Shown here: piece by piece, positions 11,302-29,838 of the stretch
How positions within the stretch are numbered: the stretch's first letter is position 1
Layout of the letters: each line of letters opens with the position of its first letter
NCBI RefSeq assembly: GCF_003173335.1
Contig: NZ_QGMZ01000027.1
Span: forward strand, 1 to 64,000
Length of the DNA stretch: 64,000 nt
Direction of reading: 5' to 3'
Source of the DNA: Methanospirillum stamsii
GTDB lineage: Archaea; Halobacteriota; Methanomicrobia; Methanomicrobiales; Methanospirillaceae
Notes under the pieces: model-generated
The model's database searches: none
Told to the model about the DNA's origin: nothing
What the model saw: only the letters and a program-made list of their open reading frames with translations
Position numbers and translations under genes: made by a program

Positions 11302-11958
11302 TTACGAGACAGAAGCCATTAATTTTTTCTTTTTCTTCCGTTCAATCAGTTTTTTTACTTTTTTCAGCCTGAACAGATCCTCCCGTTCCCGTTCCTCGAT
11401 ACTGAACCGGATATACTTTGCCTGCTCTTTAAGTTCCGGAATGATTATCTGATCAAGAGCATTAACCCTTCTCCGGTTCATCTGAATCTCATTTCCAAGC
11501 CGCCGAAGCGTGGTTTCTGTCTCAGCGAGACGGATGATCATATCCATCTCGGCTTCAAACTTCTCAGCAGCCTCATTGATCCTACTGCTTGTCCCGATAA
11601 GACCATACCCCCGTTCCATCACATTCAAAGCAACACTCTTCTTCTGAATAACCGGAACCGGAACACCCATGATATTTTTTCCGGCAATATCTACCATTAT
11701 CTGCCGTTTTGTTGCATATGAAGCGGATTTTACCGCGACCGGATCATCCACGGCCTCTGCAACGAGGAGAGCTAGATCTGCCTCTATGGCAAGCTGTTCA
11801 AGCCCTTCCCTGGACTCGGAAAAGTTGACCATTATCTTAAAAAATTCCTGAATAAGTGCCTCCATTTTTTCCTTGAGAAGGTCACGACCCTGCTCTGCCA
11901 GCAAAATCTGGGACCGTTTCTTCATCAATTCCATCCGGGTCGGATGCACCTGTTCCAT
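11302..11958 (-). CDS. atpD: A-type ATP synthase subunit D, operon 1
   Basis: A protein of 218 residues, mostly long coiled-coil helices. The N-terminal HPTRMELMKKRSQILLAEQG and the C-terminal NRRRVNALDQIIIPELK are the conserved ends of the archaeal D subunit, the central axle that turns inside the A3B3 head. A Lys-rich tail follows. It is the last gene of operon 1, 4 nt after atpB, and its C-terminus faces the histidine kinase gene. Confidence 0.95.
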   Translation of the reverse strand: MEQVHPTRMELMKKRSQILLAEQGRDLLKEKMEALIQEFFKIMVNFSESREGLEQLAIEADLALLVAEAVDDPVAVKSASYATKRQIMVDIAGKNIMGVPVPVIQKKSVALNVMERGYGLIGTSSRINEAAEKFEAEMDMIIRLAETETTLRRLGNEIQMNRRRVNALDQIIIPELKEQAKYIRFSIEEREREDLFRLKKVKKLIERKKKKKLMASVS

Positions 11959-11962
11959 GAAA

Positions 11963-13363
11963 TTATCCTCCGGAAATAATAAGAGTCCGGTATTTTTCGA
12001 TATATTCTTCTTTTATCCGCTTGAGTGCTTCATCAGGGAGAAGACCGAAGAGTTCCCAGGCAACCTGAAGGGTTGTCTCAATGCTCCGATCAACATTGCC
12101 CTGGGAAATAAACCGTTTCTCAAAATGATCTGCAAACTTCAGGTAATTCCGGTCAAGGTCCGATAGAGCTTCTTCTCCGACAATGGCAACAAGCCTTCGA
12201 AGGTCTCTGCCATAAGCATAAGAAGCATACAGCTGATCTGCAACATTACGGTGGTCTTCACGGGTCTTATCCGGACCGATGCCAAGGTTCATGAGCCGTG
12301 AAAGACAGGGGAGAGCATCTATGGGAGGATTTATTCCCTTCCTGAAGAGATCACGTGAAAGAACGATCTGGCCTTCAGTGATGTAACCCGTGAGGTCCGG
12401 AACCGGATGGGTGATATCATCGTCAGGCATGGTCAGGATGGGAATCTGGGTGATAGAACCACTGCATCCTTTTATCCTGCCTGCCCGTTCATAAATTGTT
12501 GCAAGGTCGGTATACATATACCCGGGATACCCCCTCCGTCCGGGGATCTCTTCCCGTGCAGTTGAGATCTCACGGAGGGCATCGCAGTAATTGGTCATGT
12601 CGGTCAGGATGACAAGAACTTGAAGATTATGGGTATATGCAAGAAACTCTGCTGCTGTAAGAGCACACCGGGGTGTTGCAATCCGTTCTATGGTCGGATC
12701 ATCTGCAAGGTTGAGGAAGAAAACTACCCGTTCAAGGGCACCACTCTCCTCAAACTCTTTCATGAAAAACGATGCTTCCTTGTAGGTAATTCCCATCGCT
12801 GCGAAAACAACGGCAAAGTTTTCTCCTTCTCCAAGTACTTTTGCCTGTTTGGCAATCTGTGCTGCAAGCAGGTTTGCAGGAAGACCTGCACCGGAGAAGA
12901 TAGGAAGTTTCTGCCCTCTTACAAGGGTATTTAATGCATCAATCGCGGATATTCCGGTCTGGATAAACTCTGCAGGTTTATCACGGGAATAGGGATTAAT
13001 TGGCATTCCGGCAATGTCGAGTCTTGCTTCAGGGATAATTGCAGGCCCTTCATCACGTGGCCTTCCAACCCCGTCAAGTACTCTGCCGAGCATATCAAGC
13101 GAAACGTCAATATGAGGAGACTGCCCGGTAAAGCGAACCGTTGTCACATCACTGTCTATACCCCTTGTTCCTTCAAAGACCTGAACAATGGCAATATCTT
13201 CAGAAATATCAAGGATCTGCCCGGTTCGTGTCTCACCATCAGGAAGTGTTATCTGTGCCGTTTCTCCAAAAGAAATCTGTTTTGGACGCTCAACAAAGAT
13301 AAGAGGGCCGGACACATAATTTACCGTCTGATAATCAACGGTAATCAGGCTGCCGTGCTGCAT
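11963..13363 (-). CDS. atpB: A-type ATP synthase regulatory subunit B, operon 1
   Basis: A protein of 466 residues, the full family length. It is the non-catalytic nucleotide-binding-fold subunit of the head and has no P-loop, as expected ([20 protein letters not shown] stands in its place). Other conserved parts are [27 protein letters not shown] and [15 protein letters not shown]. It overlaps the 3' end of atpA by 19 nt. A second copy lies at 21496-22905. Confidence 0.96.
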
Positions 13364-15099
13364 GTCTGCACCTCCAGGTTTTCGGTCTGTTCCCAGACCT
13401 TATCACTCAAAGCCTTGATTCTATCAGGATCTTTTTGTTCTTTCATCCGGGCGATCTCTGAACGTGCAGAGATGGAAAGAAGCTGCCTTACCGGAACTCC
13501 CCGACGCATCGCAGCCCTAACAGCATCATAATACCAGATTATTACCTTAAGCATCCAGTACTGCTTTTCAAGCGGACAGAATGAATCATCATCACTATAC
13601 GCACTCTGCTGAAGGAAATCTTCCCTGATAATCCTGGCAACCTCAAGAACCACCTTCTCTTTATCCGGAAGAGCATCAGGTCCGACCAGCTGAACAATCT
13701 CCTGAAGTTCCACCTCTTTTTGCAGGAGATACATCGCCCGGCCCCTGAATTGGTACCAGTCACGTGCAACCGTTTCAGAAAACCAGTCCTCCACATCCTC
13801 TAAGTACAGGGAATAACTTCGAATCCAGTTAACAGAGGGGTAATGCCGACGATATGCAAGATTTGCATCAAGTGCCCAGAAGGTTCCGGCTATCCGGAGG
13901 GTATTCTGGGTGATTGGTTCAGAAAAATCTCCGCCGGGTGGTGAAACAGCACCGATAATCGTAACCGAACCGGTCTTCTCTTCTGTCCCGGCACAGTTTA
14001 CCCGTCCGGCCCGTTCATAAAAAGCTGCAAGCCTTGTTGCCAGATATGCCGGATATCCCTCTTCTCCTGGCATCTCTTCAAGTCTTCCGGAGACTTCACG
14101 AAGGGCTTCACCCCACCGGGACGTTGAATCTGCAAGGAGGGCCACGTCATATCCCATGTCCCGGTAATATTCTGCAATGGTAATTCCGGTATAAATGGAA
14201 GCTTCTCTGGCTGCAACCGGCATGTTCGAGGTATTGGCAATCATTATCGTCCGCTCGATAAGCGGATACCCGGTCCTGGGATCGGTCAATTCAGGAAATT
14301 CGGTGAGTACATCGGTCATCTCGTTTCCCCGCTCACCACACCCGATGTACACAACCACCTGCGTATCTGCCCATTTTGCAAGGGTTTGTTCTGAAACCGT
14401 CTTTCCGGTACCAAATCCTCCGGGGATCATGGCTGTTCCTCCTTTGACAAGTGGGAACATCGTATCAAATACCCGCTGTCCGGTAAGGAGCGGAACCTCC
14501 GGGTCCAGTCTTTTAACAAACGGCCTTCCCTTCCTGACCGGCCATCGCTGAAGCATCGGGATTTGTGTACCATCAGCAAGGACACAAACAGGTTCGGTTA
14601 CCGTGTATTCTCCGGATGTAATGGTCTTAATCTCACCAGATATGCCGGGTGGCACCATGATAAAATGAACCAGGTGAAATTCCTGAACCGTGCCGATAAC
14701 ATCACCCTGACTCACCATTTCTCCGGGTTTCTTCACCGGAGTAAAAACCCACTTCTTCTCCCGGTCAAGTCCCGGGACCATGATACCTCTCTGAATATAA
14801 TTCCCGCTTTTTGCAAAAAGGGCAGGGAGAGGCCTTTGTACACCGTCATATATCGATGCCAGCAGTCCGGGCCCAAGTTCAACAGAGAGAGGAACTCCGG
14901 TGTTTTTCACCGGCTCGTGAATCAGAAGGCCGGTCGTGTCCTCGTAGACCTGTATAACTGCCTCATCTCCTTCCAGACGGATGATTTCTCCGGGAAGTGC
15001 AGCAGATCCCACCGAGACGACATCATACATCCGCGATCCGGTCATCTTTTTTGCAGTAATTACAGGCCCGGAGATCCGGGCTATTGTTCCGGTTATCAT
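13345..15099 (-). CDS. atpA: A-type ATP synthase catalytic subunit A, operon 1 (variant P-loop)
   Basis: A protein of 584 residues with the complete catalytic core: [38 protein letters not shown] and the long non-homologous insert of A/V-type subunits. The P-loop at residues 227-234 reads GGFGTGKT; the copy in operon 2 has the form GPFGSGKT usual for archaea. Both versions satisfy the general GxxxxGKT pattern, so activity is expected, but the Pro-to-Gly and Ser-to-Thr changes are unusual. It starts 1 nt after atpF. Confidence 0.96.
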
Positions 15100-15100
15100 G

Positions 15101-15421
15101 TTAACTCCTCATCACCACATTATACCCGATTGCTCTGCGTAGCAGTCGTTCTACATATCCGCTCACTTCATCTCCTTTCCGGGGTGCCGGTATTGGAATA
15201 ATGACCGGGTGATAACAGCGTTCAACCTGTTCATAGAGACTTTTATCAAGATTTGCCAGAAAATCCTCCCGGATTGCGATAATACCGGTTTCTTCTTCAT
15301 GTAACAGAGACGAGAGAACCTGAGATGCTTCATAAGAATCTTCAGCCTCTAAAACATCAGAACCAGCAAGTCGAAACCCGGTCGCAGATTCCGGATCAGT
15401 GATGACGACAACCTTAAACAT
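15101..15421 (-). CDS. atpF: A-type ATP synthase subunit F, operon 1
   Basis: A 106-residue protein with the Rossmann-like start [19 protein letters not shown] and IIAIREDFL in the middle, both typical of subunit F. This subunit binds the central stalk next to D. It overlaps atpC by 8 nt at its start. Confidence 0.92.
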
Positions 15422-16463
15422 AGACCATCTCAGCCTCCATCTCCTCCGGTGAAATCAGGGCATTTTTACACCGGGCAATAATTCGCAGATTCATGATTTC
15501 AGTGTATTTTGCCCACAGAAACCCGATTACTACGGTGACTGAGAGAGGATCTCCGCGGTACAGGCGTACTGCATGCCGAATCATGTATTCATCAAGAAGA
15601 TGCTGATATGCAGAAATCTTAAGATTGTCACCTTCAGTGCTCCGAAGATCTTCCAGAAACCGGTATGGTGTCCCCTCAAGTGATTCAATAACTCCGGCAA
15701 CAGATCCCAGTTTAAGCATTACCCGGAGTTTTTTCAGGTTAAAAACCCTGCCTCCCTCCAGCAGGATACGTTCTCCATCATCAGGATCAATGTCATCTCT
15801 GACCATCATCAGAATCGATTTTAGATTGATGAGATCAATTTCCGTCTGAACAAGTTGCCTGATAATCTGTTCTTCAGTAGATTTCCCCTGCACAAGACCG
15901 ATTACCCGCTCATAATAGAACCTATCAAGGGCGTTTTCGAGAATAATAAGGTCTGACTTCTCGGTATATTCAGGAAATACTTCAGTAAGCGGAGCTGCAT
16001 AACTGACATCAAACGTTGCAAGAAGATCAATTACACTCCTGATATCTGGTTGCTTTAAGAGTTCTGATAAAAGAGCTTCATCGAATTCACCGGCAGGAAT
16101 AAGGTTTTCCCTGATCTGCCCTGATGGAACATAGATTCTCTTACCCCGCAGTATGGTTTTAAGATTATGAATATCCCACCTGGATGAAAAGATGGCAATA
16201 TAACGCTCACTTTTCTCTCCTTCCAAAAAACCCTTTATCTTCTGGATTGTCCGAACAAAATTTTGCCGGAGAGCCTCTTCTATCCCTGACAAACCTGGTT
16301 TTAAAACAAGTGCCCGTTCCAGATCTTCACGGTATGGGGTATCTTCAAGGGCTGTAATCAGGGAACTGATATCAGGTTTTAAAATCAGATTGCTCAGGCT
16401 GCCTTTGTCAAGTAATCGTGAATACATCCCTTTTACCCGTGCATTGACGTACCCGTTATCCAT
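15414..16463 (-). CDS. atpC: A-type ATP synthase subunit C, operon 1 (soluble form)
   Basis: A protein of 349 residues from ATG 16463, which follows GGGGGT. It begins MDNGYVNARVKGMYSRLLDK, the standard N-terminus of the archaeal C subunit, the funnel that connects the central stalk to the K ring. There is no membrane segment, unlike the paralogue in operon 2. It overlaps atpE by 8 nt. Confidence 0.93.
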   Translation of the reverse strand: MDNGYVNARVKGMYSRLLDKGSLSNLILKPDISSLITALEDTPYREDLERALVLKPGLSGIEEALRQNFVRTIQKIKGFLEGEKSERYIAIFSSRWDIHNLKTILRGKRIYVPSGQIRENLIPAGEFDEALLSELLKQPDIRSVIDLLATFDVSYAAPLTEVFPEYTEKSDLIILENALDRFYYERVIGLVQGKSTEEQIIRQLVQTEIDLINLKSILMMVRDDIDPDDGERILLEGGRVFNLKKLRVMLKLGSVAGVIESLEGTPYRFLEDLRSTEGDNLKISAYQHLLDEYMIRHAVRLYRGDPLSVTVVIGFLWAKYTEIMNLRIIARCKNALISPEEMEAEMVYV

Positions 16464-17049
16464 CAGGACCCCCAAGGATTAGACTGATAATCTCAAGGGT
16501 GTCCTGATTCCGGATTTTTGAAAGCCGGCTTTCCAGGGTGTTATCAGCCTTGATTTTTCCATCCGCAGATGTTCCACAAAGACCTCCAATGGTAGTGAGA
16601 TCCTTTACAATAATACAATTAAGACCTGTTTTTGTAATAATCTCATTGCAAAGTGCTGAGTCACGTGGATCAACATGAAGAACAATATCTTCACCTACAA
16701 GGGCATCTGTAACTTCCCGGACAAAGCCTGCAAACAGAGAAGAATAAACCGGGTCAGATCTGATTGCCGAAAGAGAGTGAAGTGAACCTGAAAAAGCATC
16801 GTCAATGAGTTTTTGGCGTACTAAACTTATTTTCCGCTTTACATCCTGACGGGCCAGAAATTTTTGCCGGTTGGATTCAAGGGCCAGATCACGTTTTGCT
16901 TTTTCCATATACTGGGCATGGATTGCAGATGACTCTGTTTCAGCTTCCCGAAGAACAGCTTCTACTTCACGTTCAGCATTCCTGAGAACTTCCAGCTTTT
17001 TTTCACCCGCTGCTGACTCTATAGACTTAATCAGGTCTTCATATGCCAT
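16456..17049 (-). CDS. atpE: A-type ATP synthase subunit E, operon 1
   Basis: A protein of 197 residues: a long N-terminal coiled coil rich in Glu, Lys and Arg, then a globular C-terminal part (CIIVKDLTTIGGLCGTSADG). E pairs with H to form the peripheral stalks. The start follows GGGGAGGG, a strong ribosome binding site. It is encoded 35 nt after atpK. Confidence 0.93.
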   Translation of the reverse strand: MAYEDLIKSIESAAGEKKLEVLRNAEREVEAVLREAETESSAIHAQYMEKAKRDLALESNRQKFLARQDVKRKISLVRQKLIDDAFSGSLHSLSAIRSDPVYSSLFAGFVREVTDALVGEDIVLHVDPRDSALCNEIITKTGLNCIIVKDLTTIGGLCGTSADGKIKADNTLESRLSKIRNQDTLEIISLILGGPDG

Positions 17050-17084
17050 TGCTTCCCTCCCCTGTGAATATGGTTACAGGCTGA

Positions 17085-17303
17085 TTATTCAACCATTATG
17101 ATGATCATTGCGGCGACGACGAATCCTAAAATAACGAGCGTTTCAGGAATAGCCTCAAGAACTATGACTATACCTGCTGATTCAGGACGTTCTGCAACGG
17201 TTCCTGCTCCTGCTGCACCAATTTTTGACTGGGCAATACCAGTCGCAATTGCTCCTCCTGCAAAAGCAATTGCAGCGCCAATAGGGACTTCCCATCCTGT
17301 CAT
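17085..17303 (-). CDS. atpK: A-type ATP synthase rotor subunit K, operon 1 (single hairpin)
   Basis: A protein of 72 residues from ATG 17303, which follows GGAGGTTATC. It is one two-helix hairpin. Helix 2 holds the ion-binding carboxylate E54 in IPETLVILGFVVA, and helix 1 ends in ATGIAQSKIGAAG. The single hairpin with one carboxylate predicts the highest ion load per rotation for its ring. It differs strongly from the triple-hairpin K of operon 2. A likely promoter lies directly upstream (17334-17347). Confidence 0.94.
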   Translation of the reverse strand: MTGWEVPIGAAIAFAGGAIATGIAQSKIGAAGAGTVAERPESAGIVIVLEAIPETLVILGFVVAAMIIIMVE

Positions 17304-17333
17304 GATAACCTCCAACGATTACCTTATCCCCTG

Positions 17334-17347
17334 TATATTTATATATT
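17334..17347 (-). promoter_or_regulatory. Internal TATA box in front of atpK
   Basis: On the minus strand this reads AATATATAAATATA, a near-perfect archaeal TATA element in the 81-nt gap between atpI and atpK. Transcription would start about 26 nt downstream, just before the GGAGG at 17309-17313. A T-rich stretch (TCTTTTTTT near 17371-17379) lies between the atpI stop and this element and could end upstream transcripts. Together these suggest extra expression of K, which is needed in many copies. Confidence 0.6.
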
Positions 17348-17384
17348 GTGGTTTGATCAGCGATCCGTACCATTTAAAAAAAGA

Positions 17385-19298
17385 TTATAATCGTTCTTTT
17401 CCAAAAGGGCGATAGGGAATTCCTCCCCCTTCGTAAAACTTGGAGAAGAACTCTACAACATGAAGACGAAGTGAATGAATTGAGGGACTGAACATTGCAA
17501 GAAGAATATTGAGTGCATGGAGAAGAATTGCAATAATTATACCGACAATGAGTATTCCAATTTCATGTGCCAGCCGGTTGGCTACGAGTGCAAGAATCAC
17601 CGATGCAAGTCCGATTGCCATCAGACGGGCATATGACATGATATTTCCAATAGTTCCCATGATTTCAATCACTCCGCGACTTCCACCGCCATAAATCAGG
17701 CCAATAACAGATATCAGTAGCAGGATGAAAAGAAAAATCTGTACCGACTCCGGAACATGACCTGCAAAGGAAAGAACAAGGAGAAGTATTGACGATATTG
17801 CACCAAGCATTCCAACCTTTTCTACAATATGCTTTTTTTTATGGTGTCTTGCTGCATTGTAGATACCTAAAGATAACCCAAGATAGACATGAAATACTCC
17901 GATGCCAATAGTTAGGACGAGTAATGGAATAATTGCCTCAATCCGGTTCCATGTAACACCAAACAGGGTGAGCGGGTGGAGCCAGCCCATGTGTTCCGCA
18001 AAATCCCCAAAAAATTCCCCGAATACATATCCAAAGATAATAGTAGGGATAGATGAGATCATAAGAATGGCCATCATCTGCTGAATCCATGCAATCTCCT
18101 TAAAATGGAACCTGACTACCAGACTAAAAATCAAAATGATGAGACCATACCCTATATCCCCCACAATCAGCCCGAAAAAGAGAGGGAAGAAGATAGCAAT
18201 GATTGGTGTCGGGTCAATTTCACGATACCTTGGAGGCTGGACCAGGTTCATAAAAAATTCAAATGGCTTGGCCCAGAACGGATTATCAAAATAAACCGGA
18301 GCAGAATCTTCAGTTTCTTTCTCCACCTCAAGTTCATTAACCACTACCGCATCACCAAAAGATACATGCAAGGCCTTTTTTATTGCAGGCAGACTCTTTT
18401 TTGGTATCCATCCCTTTACAACAAAAGTGTAATCAGTCTGACCGAAATTTGAATACGCACTTGTTTCTTCAAGAAAATCAGAGAGCAAGGTTTTTAGTGT
18501 TATAAGATCAGAATACCACCGGGTTGAAATCTCCCGGATTTTTTCGGATATTTCAGAAATTTCTAAAGTAATAGCCTTTTTATCTGCCTCAATGAGAGTA
18601 AGTGCATCATCAAGAGGCATATTTGAATATTCCTGTGGGATACGCACTTCATTGACGTTTTTAGAGTAGAGGAAATCATGTACCTTTGATGCATATTTTT
18701 TACTAAAAACGGTGATTACAGCGATATTTTTTTCATCAAGGTCGGCACTGATAAACTCAAACTGGTTTCTCGTGATTTCTGAAATGAAGGGACGAATTAT
18801 CTCAAGGACTGATTCATACTCTTTCTGAATGATAAGGATAGTAACTTCAAATCCCTCAAGAATGGGAAGCTGCTGCTCTAGGGGGGAGATTTTTTTAATT
18901 ATTTTTTCATACCGGAGAAGAGTAGTGTACCGGACATCAAGGTCTCCTTTCCGGGTTTCAAGCGACCGCAGTCTCTCTTCAAGAGAATCACAAAGAGATG
19001 TGGCAGTTAATTTTAATTCATCATAAGAAAGACCGGCATATTTCTCGATGAAAGGGCTTTTTAGTTGTTTTTTTGCATCAACCGGCGTTAGAATCTGGAT
19101 CTGACCCTTGATTCGAACCAAAAGAGATAAAACCTCATCCGCATTAAAAGAATCAAGGGGCCCGATTGGCATCTGCGTAAAAGACTCAGTTTTTGCATCT
19201 TCAAGATGAAGTGAACCAGCCTGGTATAATACATCAATGATTCGTTGATAATCCCTTTTCGGGCCCACAACCAGAACCTGTTTCATCTTCTGTAGCAT
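17385..19298 (-). CDS. atpI: A-type ATP synthase membrane subunit I (a), operon 1
   Basis: A protein of 637 residues. The N-terminal half is soluble with coiled coils; the C-terminal half has about eight membrane helices. Conserved parts include PTPIIAIFFPLFFGLIVGDI, the arginine-bearing SYARLMAIGLASVILAL and the ending SLRLHVVEFFSKFYEGGG. It forms the ion half-channels against the K ring and anchors the peripheral stalks. ATG 19298 and ATG 19286 are both possible starts. Confidence 0.95.
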   Translation of the reverse strand: MLQKMKQVLVVGPKRDYQRIIDVLYQAGSLHLEDAKTESFTQMPIGPLDSFNADEVLSLLVRIKGQIQILTPVDAKKQLKSPFIEKYAGLSYDELKLTATSLCDSLEERLRSLETRKGDLDVRYTTLLRYEKIIKKISPLEQQLPILEGFEVTILIIQKEYESVLEIIRPFISEITRNQFEFISADLDEKNIAVITVFSKKYASKVHDFLYSKNVNEVRIPQEYSNMPLDDALTLIEADKKAITLEISEISEKIREISTRWYSDLITLKTLLSDFLEETSAYSNFGQTDYTFVVKGWIPKKSLPAIKKALHVSFGDAVVVNELEVEKETEDSAPVYFDNPFWAKPFEFFMNLVQPPRYREIDPTPIIAIFFPLFFGLIVGDIGYGLIILIFSLVVRFHFKEIAWIQQMMAILMISSIPTIIFGYVFGEFFGDFAEHMGWLHPLTLFGVTWNRIEAIIPLLVLTIGIGVFHVYLGLSLGIYNAARHHKKKHIVEKVGMLGAISSILLLVLSFAGHVPESVQIFLFILLLISVIGLIYGGGSRGVIEIMGTIGNIMSYARLMAIGLASVILALVANRLAHEIGILIVGIIIAILLHALNILLAMFSPSIHSLRLHVVEFFSKFYEGGGIPYRPFGKERL

Positions 19299-19307
19299 GA
19301 TTATACC

Positions 19308-19616
19308 CTACCTGGCTTTCTCCACGATACGTATGATAGCATTATCTACGTTTTTCTCCCCTCTTGAAAGGACATCTGCCGCTTCTCTTTCACCAGCTTT
19401 TCTAATCTCCTCAACCTGAAAAGAGAGTTCTGCCATCCCTTTTTGCATAAATACTAACGCTTCTTCAGCCCCTTTTTTCTCAGCTTCCTCCAGTTGACCC
19501 CGTGCTTTCACCCGTGCATCATGAATCAAATCTTCAGCTTCTTTGCAGGCCAAGTCACATTCCTGTTTTAATTCTGATTCTTTTTTAGAGATCTGATCGA
19601 GAAGTGAATGCTCCAT
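19308..19616 (-). CDS. atpH: A-type ATP synthase subunit H, operon 1
   Basis: A protein of 102 residues, one long coiled coil rich in Glu, Lys and Ala, with the C-terminal SRGEKNVDNAIIRIVEKAR typical of the archaeal H (G) subunit. It is the partner of E in the peripheral stalks. It lies 9 nt before atpI and 14 nt after the small gene at 19631-19798. Confidence 0.92.
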   Translation of the reverse strand: MEHSLLDQISKKESELKQECDLACKEAEDLIHDARVKARGQLEEAEKKGAEEALVFMQKGMAELSFQVEEIRKAGEREAADVLSRGEKNVDNAIIRIVEKAR

Positions 19617-19989: not shown

Positions 19990-20841
19990 ATGTTTCGAAG
20001 AATACTTTTTCCCACTGATTTCTCTGATTATGCACGGAGAGTAATGGACTGTATCGCCGGGTTACCCGGAGTCGAAGAGGTTACTCTTCTTCATGTGAGT
20101 AGTGCCAGCAGCCCGGCATTGGTAAAAGGAGAACTTGTTTCCTCGGCACGTGAACGGATTGAATCAGACCGGTTATTCCTTTCGCAACTTGGGATTATGA
20201 AAACAAAGACTGAGGTTGTGGTATCGGATTCAGTAGCAGAAGCCATTGAGCAGGCAGCAACCAGAAATGATACCACTATTATTGTCATGGGAGCCAGAGG
20301 GAAAGGGTTAATCAAAGGGCTGCACCTAGGAAGTGTAACAAACAAGGTACTCCATATTTCAAAAAAGAATCTGCTCATCATGCGGGGATCAATTATTGAA
20401 CAACTCTCCGGGGAGAAATTTCAGAAATTCTGTCCCATGATATTTTCCCGGGTGTTAATCCCGGTTGATCTCACCAAAGAATCCTGGGATGCAGTCAAAA
20501 AAATTGCTCTTATTCCGGATGTTACTGAAATTATTGTAGGATTTGTTATCTCACGTGGAGAGACTGAACGGGAACTTGAACGACTCAGGAAAGAGTCAGA
20601 ACAGAAAATAATAAAGCAATGCGAACAGATCAAAACTAACGGAGCACAGATCAGATGGAGAATCCTTGAGGGAGACCTTGTCAGCAGGATTAATGAATAC
20701 GCAAGTGAGGCAGATGTCTCTCTGGTCTGCACAGCTCCAACAGAAAAAGGGTTTTTTGCAGAGATACTGCATGGAAGTTTTTCATGCGAACTAGCCAGGC
20801 TGGCCTCTCATCCGGTACTTGTAATCAGGCGCCAGAAATAA
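19990..20841 (+). CDS. Tandem universal stress protein (two UspA domains)
   Basis: A protein of 283 residues with two Usp domains. The first (1-133) starts MFRRILFPTDFSDYARRVMD and has the ATP-binding signature GARGKGLIKGLHLGS. The second (about 145-283) starts SRVLIPVDLTKESWDAVKK but lacks a clear GxxGxxxxxxxxxG signature, so only domain 1 is likely to bind nucleotide. The gene lies between the two ATP synthase operons, and its 3' end overlaps the 3' end of atpD2 by 17 nt in convergent orientation. Confidence 0.88.
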   Translation: MFRRILFPTDFSDYARRVMDCIAGLPGVEEVTLLHVSSASSPALVKGELVSSARERIESDRLFLSQLGIMKTKTEVVVSDSVAEAIEQAATRNDTTIIVMGARGKGLIKGLHLGSVTNKVLHISKKNLLIMRGSIIEQLSGEKFQKFCPMIFSRVLIPVDLTKESWDAVKKIALIPDVTEIIVGFVISRGETERELERLRKESEQKIIKQCEQIKTNGAQIRWRILEGDLVSRINEYASEADVSLVCTAPTEKGFFAEILHGSFSCELARLASHPVLVIRRQK

Positions 20842-21511
20842 CGGGTATTGCAGTTTCCTGACTCTTTTTCTCCATTATCTGTTTCATTCTTTTTCTTCGG
20901 AACAAATCTTCACGTTCACGCTCTTCAAGTCTGAACTCAATATACCGCATTGTTCCCTGGAGACGGGGAATGACCAGATGTTCAAGGGCATTTACCCGTC
21001 TTCTGGTCCGGTTCATCTCAAGGATGAGTCGGTCAGCTCTCCCCTGGAGAGATGCATATTCGAGGATCAATGAAAGCAGTTTTTCATATCTCTGGGATAC
21101 TTCATCGACCTGTCCGGATGTTCCAACCATGCTATATCCCCAATTTTGCCTGGAACAATCAGTGTGATCTTCACTTTTACGGCTAACTTCCGGAACTCTG
21201 ACACCCATAACCTGTGTGGAGGTAACGAAGATTTCAGGTATTTTCCTGGATGATGAAGCGATTTCAGAAAGGTGTACCCATCCTGTCATAACCCCGGCAA
21301 TTTTTAAATTTTCATATGCATGAGCCATCTGCTCCCTGATGTTTTCAGCCATTCTTTCCAGTTCAACAGAAAGTCGGCTGTGTTCAAGGACAAGAGCATC
21401 GAGTTTCTCCTGCAGAATGTCGCGGCCTTTCTGTGCTATGAGCTCTCTTCTCCGGAGCCGGAGTAGTTCTAGCCGCGTTGGTCTTACTCCACTAATTACG
21501 GCCCTTTGCAT
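20825..21511 (-). CDS. atpD: A-type ATP synthase subunit D, operon 2
   Basis: A protein of 228 residues from ATG 21511 ([20 protein letters not shown]), a start that overlaps the end of atpB2 by 16 nt; the longer open frame is inside atpB2. The C-terminal [19 protein letters not shown] is diagnostic for the D axle subunit. It is last in operon 2 and overlaps the stress protein gene by 17 nt. Confidence 0.93.
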
Positions 21512-22905
21512 TCTCCTCCCTCTACGCCATGATAATAAGAATCGATGTATTCCTTGCTGATTCTCTTTAGTTCTGATCTTGGAAGAAGAGAGAGGAGATC
21601 CCATGCAAGGTTCAGAGTATCTTCAAAAGATCTGTCTTCATATGATGCCTGACGAATGAAATCAGATTCATAACGGTCACAAAACCGAAGATAGACTTTA
21701 TCAAGAGGAGTAAGACCTTCTTCACCCATCACTGCAACCAGACTTTTCAGCCGAATGCCCCGTGCATATGCTGAATATAACTGATTTTTCACTTCAGCAT
21801 GATCTGCACGGGTCCGGCCCTCCCCGATACCTCCCTGCATAAGACGGGAAAGACAGGGCAGAACATCAACAGGTGGATAGATACCTTTCCGATGTAGTTC
21901 ACGGGAAAGAACAATCTGACCTTCGGTAATATACCCGGTCAGATCAGGTACCGGATGGGTGATGTCATCATCGGGCATGGTGAGAATGGGAATCTGAGTA
22001 ATCGATCCTTCTCTTCCCCGGATACGTCCGGCCCGTTCATAAAGAGATGCAAGGTCGGTGTAAATATAACCAGGATATCCCCTTCTACCCGGAACTTCCT
22101 CCCTTGCGGCGGCAATTTCCCGGAGAGCTTCACAATAATTTGTTAGATCGGTAAGCACAACAAGCACATGCATGCCCTTGTCAAAGGCAAGAAACTCTGC
22201 AGTGGTGAGAGCAAGTCTTGGGGTAATAATCCGTTCGATAGCTGGATCATCTGCAAGGTTTAAGAACAATACAGCCCGTTCGAGTGCCCCACTTTCTTCA
22301 AATTCCCGGATGAAAAACGCAGATTCCTCATAGGTGATACCCATCGCTGCAAAGACCACGGCAAACTTCTCTGCCTGTCCGGTTACCTTTGCCTGACGAG
22401 CAATTTGTGATGCAAGCAGATTGTGAGGAAGTCCTGCACCGGAAAAAATTGGGAGTTTCTGGCCCCGAACCAGCGTGTTCATCCCGTCTATTGAAGATAT
22501 TCCGGTTTCAATAGAGTTTCTTGGATGTTCACGTGCTGATGGATTGATAGGAGAACCATAAATATCCCGTATACATTCAGGAATAACCGGACCTCCTCCG
22601 TCAATTGGCTGTGCACTTCCATCAAAAGTCCTTCCCAGCATTTCAGCGGAGAGAGAAATCTTCATTGGCTCTCCCCTGAACCTGACCTTTGTCCCTTCCG
22701 TATCAAGATCACGGGTCCCCCGGAACACCTGAACCAATGCACGGGTCGTCGTTGTTTCAAGCACCTGACCTATTCTGGTTTCACCACCAGGAAGAGATAT
22801 TTCTGCAATCTCTCCATAGCCAATCCCCTCAACCCCCTCAATGACAATAAGGGGCCCGACCACCTTTGAGACTCCGGTATAAACCCGGGATGAGAGATCC
22901 ATCAA
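21496..22905 (-). CDS. atpB: A-type ATP synthase regulatory subunit B, operon 2
   Basis: A protein of 469 residues, collinear with the operon 1 copy over its full length ([62 protein letters not shown]). It is non-catalytic. It overlaps atpA2 by 4 nt. Many residues differ from the operon 1 copy, so the two are old paralogues and not a recent duplication. Confidence 0.95.
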
Positions 22906-24674
22906 AAAGCCCCCTTAAGGTTTTTCATCGATTCCATATCCCGGGCAATAGCCTGAAAGAGTTCATCCTCCTCTTCCGGAGAAGAAGAGCCCATCCGGGC
23001 AAAGAGTTCTATAAGTGAAAGAGTCCTGATATTAGATACGGTAACTCCGGAATCAAGGGCACGTTCAGCCCGTTCAAAGAATGAAAAGATAGATTTTAAC
23101 ATCCGGTATTGTTTCTTAGGCCCGGTATAGGTATCAAATTCATCAAAAGCATACTGCATCAGGTAACTTTCCCTGATTATCTCAGCCTTTAAGAGTAACA
23201 GACGATCTGATTCCGGCAGGGTCTCAGGACCGACCAGGCGGATAATCTCCTCAAGTTCATTCTCCCGCTGAAGGATTTCCATCATCTCCTGTATCATCCG
23301 GATAAAATCAGGCCCGACATGCTCTTCCCACCACTGACCAGCCATGTTCCCGTACAGTGAATAGGACATAAGCCAGTTAATCGCCGGAAAATGCCTTTGA
23401 TATGCAAGGTCTGCATCCAAAGCCCAGAACACCTTGACAATACGAAGCGTGTTCTGCGTAACCGGTTCAGAAAAGTCACCTCCCGGAGGAGATACCGCTC
23501 CGATGACAGAAATTGAACCCTCATGCCCGCCAGATCCCAGAAGTGAGACCCTTCCGGCCCGTTCATAAAAATCAGCAAGACGGGAACTCAGGTATGCAGG
23601 ATATCCTTCTTCACCTGGCATCTCCTCAAGTCTTCCTGATATCTCCCTCATGGCTTCTGCCCACCTTGAGGTTGAATCGGCCATCAGAGCCACATGATAA
23701 CCCATATCCCGGTAATATTCTGCAAGGGTAATCCCCGTATACACCGATGCTTCCCTTGCAGCAACCGGCATATTACTGGTATTTGCAATGAGTACCATGC
23801 GGCTGCTGAGAGCATGGCCGGTTCTTGGGTCTTTTAAGGTAGGGAATTGTTCAAGGACGTCTGCCATCTCGTTGCCCCGTTCACCACATCCAATGTATAT
23901 AATGATGTCAGCGTTCACCCACTTCGCCAGCTGCTGTTGGACAACAGTCTTCCCTGAACCAAATGGACCTGGAATTGCTGCAGTTCCTCCACGGGCAAGG
24001 GGAAAGAGGGTATCTATGATCCTCTGGCCGGTGATAAGAGGTTCAACAGGATCAAGACGTTCCCGTACCGGACGAGGACTTCTGACCGGCCAACGCTGAA
24101 TCATGGTAATCGGGGTCTTTTCTGATCCGGACATTATGACCGCAATAGTATCGGTGACCACGTATTCCCCTTTTTTTGCAAGAGACATGAGAGTTCCACT
24201 CATCCCTGGTGGAACCATGATGAAATGATTGACTGATACCGATTCACGGACACAGCCTAGCCTGTCACCTTCATGTACCTCGTCACCCTCCTTTGCCAAA
24301 GGATAAAACCGGTATTTTTTTGTCCGATCTAGGGCAGGTGCAGAAGAACCACGTTCAATCATATCCCCGGTACGACGCAGGATTTCTTCGAGGGGCCGCT
24401 GGATACCGTCATACATGGTACCAACAAGGCCTGGCCCGAGCTCTACTGAAAGAGGAAGATATGTTCTTATTACCGGCTCGCCTGGAACAAGGCCGGTAGT
24501 CTCTTCATAAACCTGTATGGTAGCACGGTCTCCCTCCAGAATAATAATTTCCCCAATAAGACCGGCTTTTCCTACTCTGACTGACTCATACATCCGGCTC
24601 CCGGCCATACCTTCCGCTTCAACAACCGGCCCGGTTACCCGGATAACTGTACCATCTCTGCTCTTACTATTCAT
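22902..24674 (-). CDS. atpA: A-type ATP synthase catalytic subunit A, operon 2
   Basis: The catalytic subunit with the P-loop GPFGSGKT in the normal archaeal form, then [25 protein letters not shown] and [13 protein letters not shown]. About 590 residues. The frame is open from 24737; ATG 24674 follows GAGGG at a good spacing and gives an N-terminus ([20 protein letters not shown]) close in length to the operon 1 protein. ATG 24719, 5 nt after the atpF2 stop, is the alternative. Confidence 0.94.
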
Positions 24675-24724
24675 CGCATCCCTCTTATCATCACCAACCA
24701 TCGTTTCGTTCTTCTTCATGGTCT

Positions 24725-24997
24725 TTATACTCCACAAGTATCCGGTCTTCTCATCTCATCCGGAATGACGGATACAACCGGTATCATCCGGGGGGATGTT
24801 CTCGCTGCATAAACACGATCCGGAATCAGATCGGCAACCGACTGACTGATTAGGATTATTCCGATATCCGGTTCCACCAGGCATTCTTCCAGTCGCTTTT
24901 TTGATTCTTCAGTGTCCTCACACACATACCCCTCATGAATTCCGCCCAGCAAAAACCCCATCACCATCCTTTGGGGGCCAAGAAGTACAACCTTCAT
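24725..24997 (-). CDS. atpF: A-type ATP synthase subunit F, operon 2
   Basis: A 90-residue protein starting MKVVLLGPQRMVMGFLLGGI with IGIILISQSVADLIP in the middle, as in subunit F. It is shorter than the 106-residue copy in operon 1. It overlaps atpC2 by 4 nt. Confidence 0.88.
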   Translation of the reverse strand: MKVVLLGPQRMVMGFLLGGIHEGYVCEDTEESKKRLEECLVEPDIGIILISQSVADLIPDRVYAARTSPRMIPVVSVIPDEMRRPDTCGV

Positions 24998-26187
24998 GCT
25001 TCACCACCTGTAAGGACCAGCATCCGGGTAATCATTTCTGCTGAAAACCCTTCTGATAATCCGGAGAGGATCACCCTGATATTTCGAAGCTCAAACTCTT
25101 TTGCAATGAGATACCAGAGCAGAGGCCCGCCGGTATGATAATAATCCAGTGAGAGGCGGGAGACAATATCAAGTTCCAGTTTGTCAAGTGCTAAATCAAA
25201 AGAAACCATGCTGTCCGGAGACGGATATTTCCGGATTAACGGTGTGAGAACTGGTTCAAACCTGGTGCCTGAAAGCTGCCTGACAATATCTGGAACGCTC
25301 ATCATCTCATTTAACTGGACCAGCCTCCATTGTGGAATTTCAAGGCCACCGGGGAGTAAACAGACAGGGGCAGAACCCGGATCCCTCCCGGTATGCTTGA
25401 ACCTGATAAGTGTTTTTACATTCTGAATATCTGCCAGAATTGAAAAAAAATCCCGGTATGGAGAGGCCAGGTAACTCGTAACCTTTGATGTCTGCCTGGA
25501 GATTTCATCATATCCCAGGCAATCCAGGGCATGTTCCAGGTAAAACAGTAAATGCTCTTTTTCATAAGCAGGAAGAGCATTCATAAGCGGTATGCCATAC
25601 CTTGTATCCTGCATTATCCGGACACATTCACTAACCGTCTGTGAATTTGAAACCTTTATTGCAAGGTCATACGTAAATCCGTCAGGCCAGAGCACCGGGT
25701 TTTCAGAAAATGATTTTATCTGATGCTGATGAACAAACCGGAGTATTCGTTTAATTTTTGCCAGTTCCTGAAAAAAGAGATAGGCATCAAAAAATTCCCA
25801 TGCATCCTGAGGAGATTCTGACCTCATTAAGGTGACCTCTTCATACCACAGAGCAAGGACTTCTTCTTCGACCTGATCCGAATTACATTCAGGTGGAATA
25901 TTCCGAAGATAACCAGCGGTTTTTAGCCGGTTTATGCAGTCAGGAAGTGAACCACTCTGCAAAAGCCCCATCACCTGTTCGTTTTCAATAAAAGGAACTC
26001 CCTTTGCCTTGATACGGGCAATTACCGGAGTGTATGAAGTAATAGAGAGAAGAACAGGAAAATAGCCGGCTGTACTCAGAATTGCTATGAGTAATAATGC
26101 AATAATAAGGACAACAATCGCCGTTGTCAAAGGGGTGAGATATGGCAGGCCTGCATCAAAAAGAGGTGATAGCATCTCATTAGTCAT
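24994..26187 (-). CDS. atpC: A-type ATP synthase subunit C with N-terminal membrane helix, operon 2
   Basis: A protein of 397 residues from ATG 26187, about 50 residues longer than the operon 1 copy. The extra N-terminus contains one strong hydrophobic helix at about residues 20-42 (LTTAIVVLIIALLLIAILST). After it the usual subunit C fold begins (SYTPVIARIKAKGVPF) and continues to the normal C-terminus (LRNIRVILSGLSEGFS). Archaeal C subunits are normally soluble, so this form should be anchored in the membrane, perhaps in the lumen of the K ring. It overlaps atpE2 by 8 nt. ATG codons upstream at 26226 and 26199 lie inside atpE2. Confidence 0.88.
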   Translation of the reverse strand: MTNEMLSPLFDAGLPYLTPLTTAIVVLIIALLLIAILSTAGYFPVLLSITSYTPVIARIKAKGVPFIENEQVMGLLQSGSLPDCINRLKTAGYLRNIPPECNSDQVEEEVLALWYEEVTLMRSESPQDAWEFFDAYLFFQELAKIKRILRFVHQHQIKSFSENPVLWPDGFTYDLAIKVSNSQTVSECVRIMQDTRYGIPLMNALPAYEKEHLLFYLEHALDCLGYDEISRQTSKVTSYLASPYRDFFSILADIQNVKTLIRFKHTGRDPGSAPVCLLPGGLEIPQWRLVQLNEMMSVPDIVRQLSGTRFEPVLTPLIRKYPSPDSMVSFDLALDKLELDIVSRLSLDYYHTGGPLLWYLIAKEFELRNIRVILSGLSEGFSAEMITRMLVLTGGEA

Positions 26188-26791
26188 CAGAGACACCATT
26201 TTCAAACAGGATTTTTGATACTGCAACGATCATGTCTCGTTTCATACGGGAAAACCGGGCTTCAACAGTATTATCAATCGTTACACGGTCTGTAACTCTT
26301 TCGCAGATAACGCCTCCGGCAGTCATAACCGGCTCATCAGAAAGGTGTATGGAATTCCCATCTTTCTGCATTGAATTGATTATCTCCTGAACAATTTTCC
26401 GGTCATCAGGATGTACAGATATGATATGTTCCTGGCCGCCCAGATTTACCATGCATTCTTCAATAAGATGTTTCAGAAGAGAGGGATATTCATTTTTTGT
26501 CCGAAGTGTCTGCAGGTACTTTTCTGTCTCTTTAAAGCACTGATTAATAAGATCCTCTTTAGACTCCCGGACTAGTTTTTTTGCTTCAATCCGGGTCCTG
26601 GACTGCTGACTGGCAATGTTTTGTCGAATCTCTCTGAAGCCTTCTGATAACCGGTGATTGTATGCAGCTTCTGCTCTCTGTTCAGCCAGGTTTCTGATAT
26701 TAGTTAGTTCACATGCTTCTTCTGCCCTGATTGACCGGACTTCTTCTTCTGCTTCTCTTTTTATCCGGTTTATGATTGCTTCGACAGTCAT
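26180..26791 (-). CDS. atpE: A-type ATP synthase subunit E, operon 2
   Basis: A protein of 203 residues: an N-terminal charged coiled coil (IKREAEEEVRSIRAEEACEL) and a globular C-terminal part with AGGVICERVTDRVTIDNTVE, matching the E subunit ending. It lies 26 nt after atpK2 and overlaps atpC2. Confidence 0.92.
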   Translation of the reverse strand: MTVEAIINRIKREAEEEVRSIRAEEACELTNIRNLAEQRAEAAYNHRLSEGFREIRQNIASQQSRTRIEAKKLVRESKEDLINQCFKETEKYLQTLRTKNEYPSLLKHLIEECMVNLGGQEHIISVHPDDRKIVQEIINSMQKDGNSIHLSDEPVMTAGGVICERVTDRVTIDNTVEARFSRMKRDMIVAVSKILFENGVSDD

Positions 26792-26817
26792 AGTACGCCA
26801 GTTTGTTATCCAATAAA

Positions 26818-27543
26818 TTATCCACTAAATAATCCAAGACCGAACAGTATCAAAATTGCAACCAATAGTCCGAATATTGCAAATGTCTCGGACATTGCTG
26901 CAAAAACAAGGCTTCTTCCGATTGCCCCCGGATTTCGTGCTGTAGCAGCAATTCCACTTGAACAGGTGATACCCTGACCAATAGCAGAAAAGCCGGCAAG
27001 ACCCACTGCAAGACCTGCACCAACAAGGCCGATTGCTATTGGCATCTCTACAGAGAAGTCCGATGACAATATTCCGGTCAGTGCCAGCATCAGAACTGCT
27101 ATCAACAGACCATAGATGGCCTGAGTCTCACAGACTGCCGCGAATACCACACCTCGCCCAAACATCTCAGGTTTTTCAGCAGTATTTGCCACCCCTGAAG
27201 CAGCAGCAATACCCTGGCCAATAGCAGAAAAGCCGGCAAGACCTACTGAAAGCCCTGCTGCTATTGCAACAATTCCGGCCGGAGTCGGGATATCTCCGGC
27301 AGTTCCTCCTAGAAATCCTCCGGCCTGCAGGATCAAAATCGCGATTAATAGACCATAGATAGCCTGGGTCTGCGGAACCGCAGTAAAGACAAGAGCCATC
27401 CCAAATTTCTCAGGACGTTCTGATATCACCCCTGAAGCTGCTGAACCAACAATACCAACCCCAATACCAGATCCAATTGCTGAACATCCCACAGCAATAC
27501 CCGCACCGATAGCCATCAGAACTGCACCTGTACCAATTGTCAT
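26818..27543 (-). CDS. atpK: A-type ATP synthase rotor subunit K with three fused hairpins, operon 2
   Basis: A protein of 241 residues made of three tandem copies of the two-helix hairpin, about 80 residues each. The carboxylate positions are Q58 (VPQTQAIYG), E139 (VCETQAIYG) and E219 (MSETFAIFG). Helix-1 Gln residues that help bind Na+ in related rings are present in hairpins 2 and 3 (Q110 and Q190, in FSAIGQG), while hairpin 1 has S25 there. So only two of three hairpins should carry an ion. Triple hairpins with one missing carboxylate are known from Methanocaldococcus and relatives. It overlaps atpI2 by 4 nt and has no promoter of its own. Confidence 0.93.
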   Translation of the reverse strand: MTIGTGAVLMAIGAGIAVGCSAIGSGIGVGIVGSAASGVISERPEKFGMALVFTAVPQTQAIYGLLIAILILQAGGFLGGTAGDIPTPAGIVAIAAGLSVGLAGFSAIGQGIAAASGVANTAEKPEMFGRGVVFAAVCETQAIYGLLIAVLMLALTGILSSDFSVEMPIAIGLVGAGLAVGLAGFSAIGQGITCSSGIAATARNPGAIGRSLVFAAMSETFAIFGLLVAILILFGLGLFSG

Positions 27544-29522
27544 GAATAATCCTCATTATTTACGTGTGTATAGATACGATTTTCACGGAATGGAATAAAT
27601 TCCCTTCCTCCTCCGGAATAAAACCTGCCAAAAAATTCAATGTAATGCAGACGAAGAGCATGAATAACACTTCCAAGAGTCTGAATTGCAAGGTTAAAGA
27701 ACTGTCCGGCAATACAGAAGATAATCGCCGGTACAATCATAAATGGGTGAACAGATGCTATCATTTCAGATAAAATATTAATTGTCATCGCTATTCCTCC
27801 GGTAGCAAGAGCGAGAGCTAAGATCCTGACATAGGAAAGCCAGTCTCCCAGGAATCCGGTAAGACTGAAAAAGCCCATCGGGCCCTTTTTAAGAAATAAC
27901 ACTGCAAGCCCGATGAGTCCCCCACCAATAGCAAGATTGGTAATTATAGATGGAAATGTTGTCCAGCCAAAAAACTGAATCAACAGAACTGCTGCTGAAG
28001 GCTGGAGAATAAACCAGATAATGTTCTCCTGGATAGCAGCACTGTACAGCCGATTCCGGATATTTTCCCAAAGTCCAATGATAATACCAAGGTTGAGGTG
28101 GATTGTACCAATGATAAGGGCTATCTGGAATAATAAGATTGGAGAATTAAGCGGTTCAATCAGCACAAATGGTGGCTGAATATTGAAAAACCGAGGAAGC
28201 AGATCTCCAAACCAGCCCCCCTGAATTGTCCCAAGGATAATATCTGCAACACCAGAACAGAGGAGGATATAACTCATATCCCGAAACGATGCATCGGTTC
28301 TTCCAGGTCCACGGTATAAGAGCCACCCGACAAGGGCAATAATAAGTCCATATCCGGCATCACCCAGCATCATCCCGAAAAAGAGCAGATAAGCGGGTGC
28401 AAAAAATGGAGTAGGATCTATCTCATCGTACCTGGGTCGGGAAAATGTCGTTGTAAGGAGTTCAAATGGTGCCAGCCAGGAGGGGTTATCATACCTGACC
28501 GGAACATCATCATGCGGGTCAGCCGGTTCCGTAATTACAAAGCACTCCTCCCCTGTGGCCGACCGGATGAGAGACTTCAGTTTTTCCTCATCCCTTTGTC
28601 GTACCCATCCCCGGAGATACGAAACATCTCTGCTTGTCCCAAATTTCCGGTTAATATCAATCCTTTCCCGCCGGAGGATGAGCTCTTCACGGTATGCCTG
28701 AAGTAGTGATAGATAGGTATGGGCATAATCAGTCAGTTGTTCCTGTAGTTTCTGTTCTTTTGTAGCATATTCAGAAAGTAGCGCCAGTTCCTGCTTTTGC
28801 ATATCATCTGGCAGGCCGGAGAAACTTTCAGGAAAAACCAGCTGATTAAACCACGAGGCATGAATCAGATCAGATAATGCATCCCGGTGATTATTGGTAG
28901 AGACACAAAAAATCAGGATTATACCATCTTTTTTTTCTGAATACAGGGAAATTTCATCAGTTCCTGCCTCTGCAAGCCATCTATCCGGGAGGGAAGAATG
29001 TTCCTCTTTTACATACCCGGCAATGAAATGTGTAAAAGGAGCAGGTTTCAGGTAAGATAGGGAAATTCCGGTTCCCTTCAGACGTTCAAGGCTTGCAATA
29101 TATCCTTCACATGATGTATAGTGATCCCGGTTTTTTTTCAGATCTTCCTGGATTTTTAAAACTTCCTCTGCCCGATCTAATTGAGAAAGGATATCAGAAA
29201 ACAGCCCATCGTGTGAACCTGAATAACCAGGAACATACTGTTGTTCCTGCCTGGAGAAAATTGATGTGAGAAGATTACCGGTTTTTTGAGCATATGGCTC
29301 CAGGATTTCAAGAACCCGATCAATCCTGAACTGAATGTTAAGTATTTTTTCGAGATCTTCTTTTGGAATTACCGGTACCTGAAAAGTTACATCACCGACA
29401 GGAACTGAACGAAGGTCTAGTATTTCCAGTTCTCCCTGTTTGTGAAGAGCAGTGGTGACCTCTAAAAGCCACCTCTGGTGGACCCCGATGAGGACATTAC
29501 TCATTCGAGCTGGATAAAACAT
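27540..29522 (-). CDS. atpI: A-type ATP synthase membrane subunit I (a), operon 2
   Basis: A protein of 660 residues with a soluble N-terminal half and about eight C-terminal membrane helices. PTPFFAPAYLLFFGMMLGDA, LSYVRILALALATGG (with the conserved Arg) and ALRLHYIEFFGRFYSGGG match subunit I. It must pair with the triple-hairpin K encoded next to it. It overlaps atpH2 by 26 nt. Confidence 0.94.
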   Translation of the reverse strand: MFYPARMSNVLIGVHQRWLLEVTTALHKQGELEILDLRSVPVGDVTFQVPVIPKEDLEKILNIQFRIDRVLEILEPYAQKTGNLLTSIFSRQEQQYVPGYSGSHDGLFSDILSQLDRAEEVLKIQEDLKKNRDHYTSCEGYIASLERLKGTGISLSYLKPAPFTHFIAGYVKEEHSSLPDRWLAEAGTDEISLYSEKKDGIILIFCVSTNNHRDALSDLIHASWFNQLVFPESFSGLPDDMQKQELALLSEYATKEQKLQEQLTDYAHTYLSLLQAYREELILRRERIDINRKFGTSRDVSYLRGWVRQRDEEKLKSLIRSATGEECFVITEPADPHDDVPVRYDNPSWLAPFELLTTTFSRPRYDEIDPTPFFAPAYLLFFGMMLGDAGYGLIIALVGWLLYRGPGRTDASFRDMSYILLCSGVADIILGTIQGGWFGDLLPRFFNIQPPFVLIEPLNSPILLFQIALIIGTIHLNLGIIIGLWENIRNRLYSAAIQENIIWFILQPSAAVLLIQFFGWTTFPSIITNLAIGGGLIGLAVLFLKKGPMGFFSLTGFLGDWLSYVRILALALATGGIAMTINILSEMIASVHPFMIVPAIIFCIAGQFFNLAIQTLGSVIHALRLHYIEFFGRFYSGGGREFIPFRENRIYTHVNNEDYS

Positions 29523-29838
29523 CCTCTTCTCCGGTTACAATACGGACAACCTGAAGAACTGCTGCATTGACATTCTTCTCTCCCTTGGACCGCAGGTTTG
29601 ATACTTCATTCTCCGCTTCCGACATCACGAAGAGAAGTTCCTTCCGTAATATTTCTTCTTCTTTCTCCCGTTCACTTCGAAGCCGGGTCTCGGCATCTGA
29701 AAGACGAACGGAAAATCGTTCTTCTCCTTCGCGCTTTGCTTCTTCCATCGCGAGTTTCATGCGATGTCGTGCAGTTTCGATCAGGTTGACTGCTTCTTTT
29801 TCAGCTTCTTTAATCTGATCAATCTCACGAAGATCCAT
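29497..29838 (-). CDS. atpH: A-type ATP synthase subunit H, operon 2
   Basis: A protein of 113 residues, one coiled coil (IDQIKEAEKEAVNLIETARH at the start, RSKGEKNVNAAVLQVVRIV near the end). It is the peripheral stalk partner of E and the first recognised gene of operon 2. Confidence 0.9.
   Translation of the reverse strand: MDLREIDQIKEAEKEAVNLIETARHRMKLAMEEAKREGEERFSVRLSDAETRLRSEREKEEEILRKELLFVMSEAENEVSNLRSKGEKNVNAAVLQVVRIVTGEEDVLSSSNE

Follow-up and report, generated by a model that had tools for sequence, protein, structure and literature searches.

A triplicated hairpin in rotor subunit K has been published for M. jannaschii and "some other methanogens" (PMC2359735), and a monomeric rotor of 13 hairpins, all reported to carry Na+ ligands, is described for Methanopyrus kandleri (PMC2359735). 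In M. hungatei JF-1, three A-type ATPase clusters, Aha1, Aha2 and Aha3, have been published (PMC4704411); the section describing these clusters mentions neither the hairpin number of the rotor subunits nor lost carboxylates.

We analysed 64,000 nucleotides of Methanospirillum stamsii DNA (contig NZ_QGMZ01000027.1, positions 1 to 64,000; hereafter the window), in which the rotor subunit K2 is encoded between subunits I and E of an A-type ATPase operon, operon 2 (Table 1). Across this gene the plus strand contains many stops and is non-coding, and the minus strand holds a single 241-aa ORF. A hairpin scan and the helices of a structural model (pLDDT 92.5) place three two-helix hairpins in the one chain. 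Translation of the ORF bears out the initial annotation, according to which these hairpins carry Q58, E139 and E219 at the carboxylate position, compared with E54 in the single hairpin of K1, the rotor subunit of operon 1. K2 scored 315 bits against the NCBIfam model NF004913 (three-hairpin subunit K, PRK06271), above the curated cut-off of 211; the model also found matches in control genomes including M. jannaschii and exceeded the cut-off in one of them, M. jannaschii or another. Given this match, the published triplication and the three clusters of JF-1, K2 belongs by its sequence to the known three-hairpin subunit K family. Like K2, the M. jannaschii-type K (PRK06271) has three fused hairpins; K2 differs in lying in an accessory operon beside a single-hairpin A-type operon, with a third, canonical one elsewhere in the genome.

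Other Methanospirillum genomes encode relatives of K2 with 94–96% amino-acid identity, and K2 is conserved in seven genomes of the genus, the present one included. The dN/dS ratio is ~0.02; strong purifying selection acts on K2. The Q/E/E pattern of the carboxylate positions is invariant in all 12 of the 12 aligned three-hairpin sequences, where sequence is present. Together with the family score, these observations show that the presence of only two carboxylates, to which the initial annotation drew attention, is not due to chance. A subunit that is cleaved, silent or decaying appears extremely improbable in view of the low dN/dS and its retention in seven genomes, and also because the operon is intact, as are its motifs (the P-loop of A, the B-subunit motifs and both (stator) arginines of subunit I).

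Table 1 Coordinates of the two ATPase operons of the window, of K2 and its residues, and of the 12-hairpin genes of other loci.
Feature	Coordinates	Strand	Remarks
ATPase operon 2, H-I-K-E-C-F-A-B-D	20825..29838	(-)	complete A-type
Operon 2 H	29497-29838	(-)	
Operon 2 I	27540-29522	(-)	
K2, three-hairpin rotor subunit K of ATPase operon 2, 241 aa	26818..27543	(-)	
K2 hairpin 1	27295..27543	(-)	Q58, no carboxylate; lacks Gln110 equivalent; T59/Q60/Y63 retained
Q58 codon, lost carboxylate	27370..27372	(-)	arithmetic from ORF
K2 hairpin 2	27055..27294	(-)	Q110, E139, T140/Q141/Y144; both faces live
E139 codon	27127..27129	(-)	arithmetic from ORF
K2 hairpin 3	26821..27054	(-)	Q190, E219; F221/F224 replace Gln/Tyr ligands
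E219 codon	26887..26889	(-)	arithmetic from ORF
Operon 2 E	26180-26791	(-)	
Operon 2 C	24994-26226	(-)	
Operon 2 F	24725-24997	(-)	
Operon 2 A	22902-24737	(-)	
Operon 2 B	21496-22905	(-)	
Operon 2 D	20825-21604	(-)	
Universal-stress-protein-like gene, between operons 1 and 2	19990..20841	(+)	named by inspection; position conserved
ATPase operon 1, same gene order	11302..19616	(-)	complete; downstream of operon 2
Operon 1 H	19308-19616	(-)	
Operon 1 I	17385-19298	(-)	
K1, single-hairpin rotor subunit of operon 1, 72 aa	17085-17303	(-)	E54; ligand pattern Q/E/T
Operon 1 E	16456-17049	(-)	
Operon 1 C	15414-16475	(-)	
Operon 1 F	15101-15421	(-)	
Operon 1 A	13345-15099	(-)	
Operon 1 B	11963-13363	(-)	
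Operon 1 D	11302-11958	(-)	
12-hairpin gene of L025	1158..		
12-hairpin gene of L034	5216..		
12-hairpin gene of L036	7390..		

A third, canonical A-type operon with a single-hairpin subunit, K0, which the initial annotation had missed, lies on another contig of the same genome. Nearly all members of the order (133 of 135 good genomes) carry this canonical single-hairpin operon, which makes operon 2 an extra; operons with a multi-hairpin K are present in roughly one quarter of the genomes of the order, as counted from the locus table. The numbering of K1 starts from the ATG at 17303, which is preceded by a GGAGGT site. In the operon 1 A subunit the P-loop reads GGFGTGKT, compared with the usual GPFGSGKT of operons 0 and 2. 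M. hungatei JF-1 (G012) has an orthologous arrangement with the same operon pair; by chromosome order, operon 1 is equivalent to Aha2 and operon 2 to Aha3. The JF-1 protein Mhun_1764 (subunit I), detected in co-culture (PMC9275234), was assigned to operon 1 by gene order; for operon 2, we found no expression data in the literature.

Methanospirillum and several Methanoregulaceae share the order multi-hairpin operon, stress-protein-like gene, K1-type operon. The same two-operon order with extra DNA in between is found in G052, and in another family (L139–L142) the two ATPase operons adjoin but are convergent. Adjoining multi-hairpin and single-hairpin K operons are kept in the same order across families (L012, L013, L029, L032, L135 and L149–L152), often with a universal-stress-protein-like gene between the pair. 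In a Methanospirillaceae relative (L138, G006:C45), operon 1 has its I gene on the strand opposite to the remaining operon genes. The adjacency of operons 1 and 2 in many genomes is what one might expect if K2 and K1 (or K0) were built into one mixed ring, with the ion count set by their ratio, and such rings have a precedent in Acetobacterium woodii (4bem), where one long and nine short chains are combined. However, each operon encodes a complete subunit set of its own and K1 and K2 are only ~38% identical, and we regard a mixed ring as very unlikely.

The solved ring that best matches K2 in both sequence and structure is that of NtpK, the two-hairpin Na+ rotor subunit of E. hirae (2bl2; structural match with Z 17.7), which overlays the modeled hairpins 1–2 of K2 with an rmsd of 2.1 Å over 150 residues. 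We take the NtpK ion site to consist of Gln110 and Glu139 of one hairpin and Thr64, Gln65 and Tyr68 of the preceding hairpin, and the five ligand positions were read for each hairpin in the order Gln110, Glu139, Thr64, Gln65, Tyr68 (NtpK numbering). The three hairpins of K2 read V-Q-T-Q-Y, Q-E-T-Q-Y and Q-E-T-F-F, and the two of NtpK V-G-T-Q-Y and Q-E-T-Y-L. K1 (Q-E-T-L-L) and K0 (E-E-T-I-F) have one carboxylate per hairpin. A full E. hirae-type Na+ ligand set is thus present at two of the three K2 interfaces, 1-2 and 2-3, with T59, Q60 and Y63 of hairpin 1 forming the ligand face toward hairpin 2. The third interface, the 3-to-1 contact between neighboring chains, is degenerate on both faces: in hairpin 1, Glu is replaced by Gln and the Gln110 position is occupied by Val, and hairpin 3 has Phe in place of Gln65 and Tyr68. 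These ligand residues, like the Q/E/E pattern, are shared by all 12 aligned three-hairpin sequences wherever they are covered.

The claim that, per hairpin, K2 would bind two thirds the number of ions is therefore sound, and the suggestion of Na+ binding from the ligand residues is well founded as far as sequence can tell; Na+ is the likely ion of K2. The K2 chain would consist of a "start", a "middle" and an "end" hairpin, with ion sites of the NtpK type formed at the 1-2 and 2-3 contacts, and the chain-to-chain interface would carry no ion because the ligands are lost on both of its faces. NtpK has the same ligand pattern in its start and end hairpins and likewise one dead interface per chain, but its two hairpins form one site per chain in a ring of ten chains, whereas K2, with its extra middle hairpin, would form two. 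The M. kandleri rotor resembles K2 as an archaeal A-type rotor with fused hairpins; unlike it, K2 has three hairpins, has lost one carboxylate, and does not span the ring with one chain. The first hairpin of M. jannaschii K reportedly also lacks the carboxylate, according to older reviews.

The hairpin scan covered 127 loci. Complete K2-type genes have 3, 4, 6 or 12 hairpins, with 2 in the most remote relatives; all of these numbers divide 12. Six-hairpin K subunits occur in Methanolinea and Methanogenium. In every complete multi-hairpin gene, the first hairpin lacks the Glu, and in nearly all it reads V-Q-T-Q-Y, the exceptions being I-M-T-Q-Y, I-Q-T-Q-Y and V-M-T-Q-Y in two-hairpin forms, T-Q-T-Q-Y in one odd lineage and T-Q-T-Q-F in L170. 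The last hairpin, except in L170, keeps the Glu and lacks Gln65. Since, in dozens of relatives, both acid and Gln ligand are missing from the first hairpin, and the last hairpin has the acid but no neighbor-side Gln or Tyr, the number of complete Na+-type sites in a chain of n hairpins is n-1, with a dead site where chains meet. To this rule there are two kinds of exceptions: the 12-hairpin genes of L025 and L034, each of them a 6+6 fusion that contains a further, internal dead contact, and L047, L049, L162 and L163, which have other losses. The n-1 pattern in dozens of relatives, with its dead site at the chain junction as read from the ligand residues, is new here.

The first and last hairpins are orthologous between lineages. 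In contrast, the middle hairpins are interchangeable and resemble each other more within a chain than across distant lineages. Middle hairpins are thus gained and lost freely, which leaves their number free to vary. In a tree of the A (catalytic) subunits of the same operons, the hairpin number changed 14 times, and at least 10 times after branches with less than 95% support had been collapsed. We could reject one common origin of the 4-hairpin form (p 4e-49) but not a single clade of the 3-hairpin genes of Methanomicrobiales (p 0.085). The tree favours an origin of the 3-hairpin K2 inside a 6-hairpin clade in Methanospirillaceae. The probability that ten changes would all fall on divisors is ~4e-4 under a crude null with equal chances for 2 to 12 hairpins, an optimistic figure because doubling (3 to 6 to 12) favours divisors of 12.

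Three genes of Thermoplasmata (L025, L034 and L036) encode 12 hairpins in a single chain of 1120–1190 aa, and this number has been reached by two architectures, a 6+6 fusion (L025 and L034) and a 1+10+1 arrangement (L036). These are possible one-chain rotors, besides the 13-hairpin rotor of Methanopyrus. An AlphaFold2 prediction of L036, run for ring closure on a three-row alignment, failed, with a pLDDT of 34. Five hairpins are only apparent in L040 and L132, which are broken or at contig ends. L040 and L019 (G233), when joined at a 335-base, 98.8% identical overlap, would give a gene of 8 hairpins in which the contact of hairpins 5 and 6 is a second dead one; a frameshift is present. In L057, L058, L061 and L172, of the same lineage as L040, the contigs end inside near-identical hairpin repeats. 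This badly assembled lineage (L040/L019, also L057, L058 and L172) may have 8 hairpins.

That complete genes have only divisors of 12 despite the free turnover of middle hairpins is most naturally read as a ring of twelve hairpins, the size seen in Thermus; each of the family's hairpin numbers (2, 3, 4, 6 and 12) would close such a ring. We consider it fairly probable that K2, serving as rotor subunit in an accessory A-type (A1Ao) ATPase, forms a ring of this size from four chains of start, middle and end hairpins joined through dead 3-to-1 interfaces, with eight ions per turn, or 2.7 ions per ATP. It is doubtful, by comparison, that ring size varies in the K2 family and hairpin number merely records gene history, in which case the ion-to-ATP ratio of K2 may equal that of K1 or K0. 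Such variability would agree with the difference between related rotors of 12 and 20 hairpins, a bias toward doubling could by itself give 3, 6 and 12, and a single 3-hairpin clade of Methanomicrobiales is compatible with the tree. Yet the polyphyletic 4-hairpin form interconverts with 6 with no 5 seen, 12 has been reached by both architectures, and the turnover of middle hairpins is free.

Solved Thermus rings contain 12 single-hairpin chains per entry. The ring of E. hirae contains ten two-hairpin chains, that is, 20 hairpins, so twelve is not universal in the wider family. An overlay of the K2 model on known chains does not distinguish between rings of 12 and 20 hairpins. The same chain pattern could also build a ring of 24 hairpins, with eight K2 chains and sixteen ions, or another multiple, and hence more ions per ATP: 3, 4, 6 and 12 all divide 24, as does the 8 of the doubtful lineage, and the related two-hairpin ring of E. 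hirae has 20 hairpins. We find this distinctly unlikely, as 24 hairpins exceed the rings seen in Thermus and E. hirae and 5.3 ions per ATP is, to our knowledge, above known values. About 24 helices were reportedly assumed for M. jannaschii in older reviews, hence a prediction of 8 sites.

In a ring of twelve hairpins, the number of ions per turn would be 8 for n=3, 9 for n=4, 10 for n=6, 11 for n=12 and 12 for n=1, and 10 for the fused 6+6 form. An eight-ion ring would need a larger ion-motive force for ATP synthesis than one with all 12 sites, or, run as a pump, would build a steeper gradient; if one ATP takes 50 kJ/mol, the thresholds would be ~194 mV for 8 ions and ~130 mV for 12. With eight ions, operon 2 would be best suited to spending ATP on the build-up of a steep gradient, or to synthesis at high force. 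The broader proposal, that the ring is fixed at twelve hairpins, that the number of fused hairpins shifts the ion-to-ATP gear and that Methanospirillum can run two or three differently geared ATPases, seems to us about evenly balanced. The initial annotation had assumed a constant helix number and, from it, a different gear for K2 with one third fewer ions than K1. Constancy is supported within the K2 family by chains of 2, 3, 4, 6 and 12 hairpins, and the altered gear by the eight ions predicted for a 12-hairpin ring; the comparison with K1 is conditional on the size of the K1 ring.

The ion-to-ATP ratio sets how little energy can support a cell, a limit to which methanogens live close. Provided that rings are of constant size and that the ion count is determined by dead interfaces, the ratio would be readable from the K gene in many genomes, closely related enzymes with 3, 6 and 12 hairpins would serve as natural experiments on gearing, and the occurrence of fused hairpins only in certain numbers would be explained. 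We found neither a published divisor-of-12 rule nor published six- or twelve-hairpin K subunits in a search of literature other than subscription papers by specialist groups.

One K-like gene departs further from the common pattern. L170 (G705:C1:75000-85000, minus strand; L181, L182) encodes three hairpins in 244 aa; Gln occupies each of the three carboxylate positions, and in hairpins 2–3 the Gln110 position holds Asn. No relatives of this carboxylate-free K were found in its order, which includes one other genome, and it was seen in a single genome. The gene is followed, 21 bases on, by a single-hairpin K of 77 aa whose ligand set is complete; as a rotor with one live hairpin in four, the pair would be extreme. 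In L031, L034 and L066, the A-subunit gene appears as two separated matches, as would result from an insertion, such as perhaps an intein, or from a frameshift.
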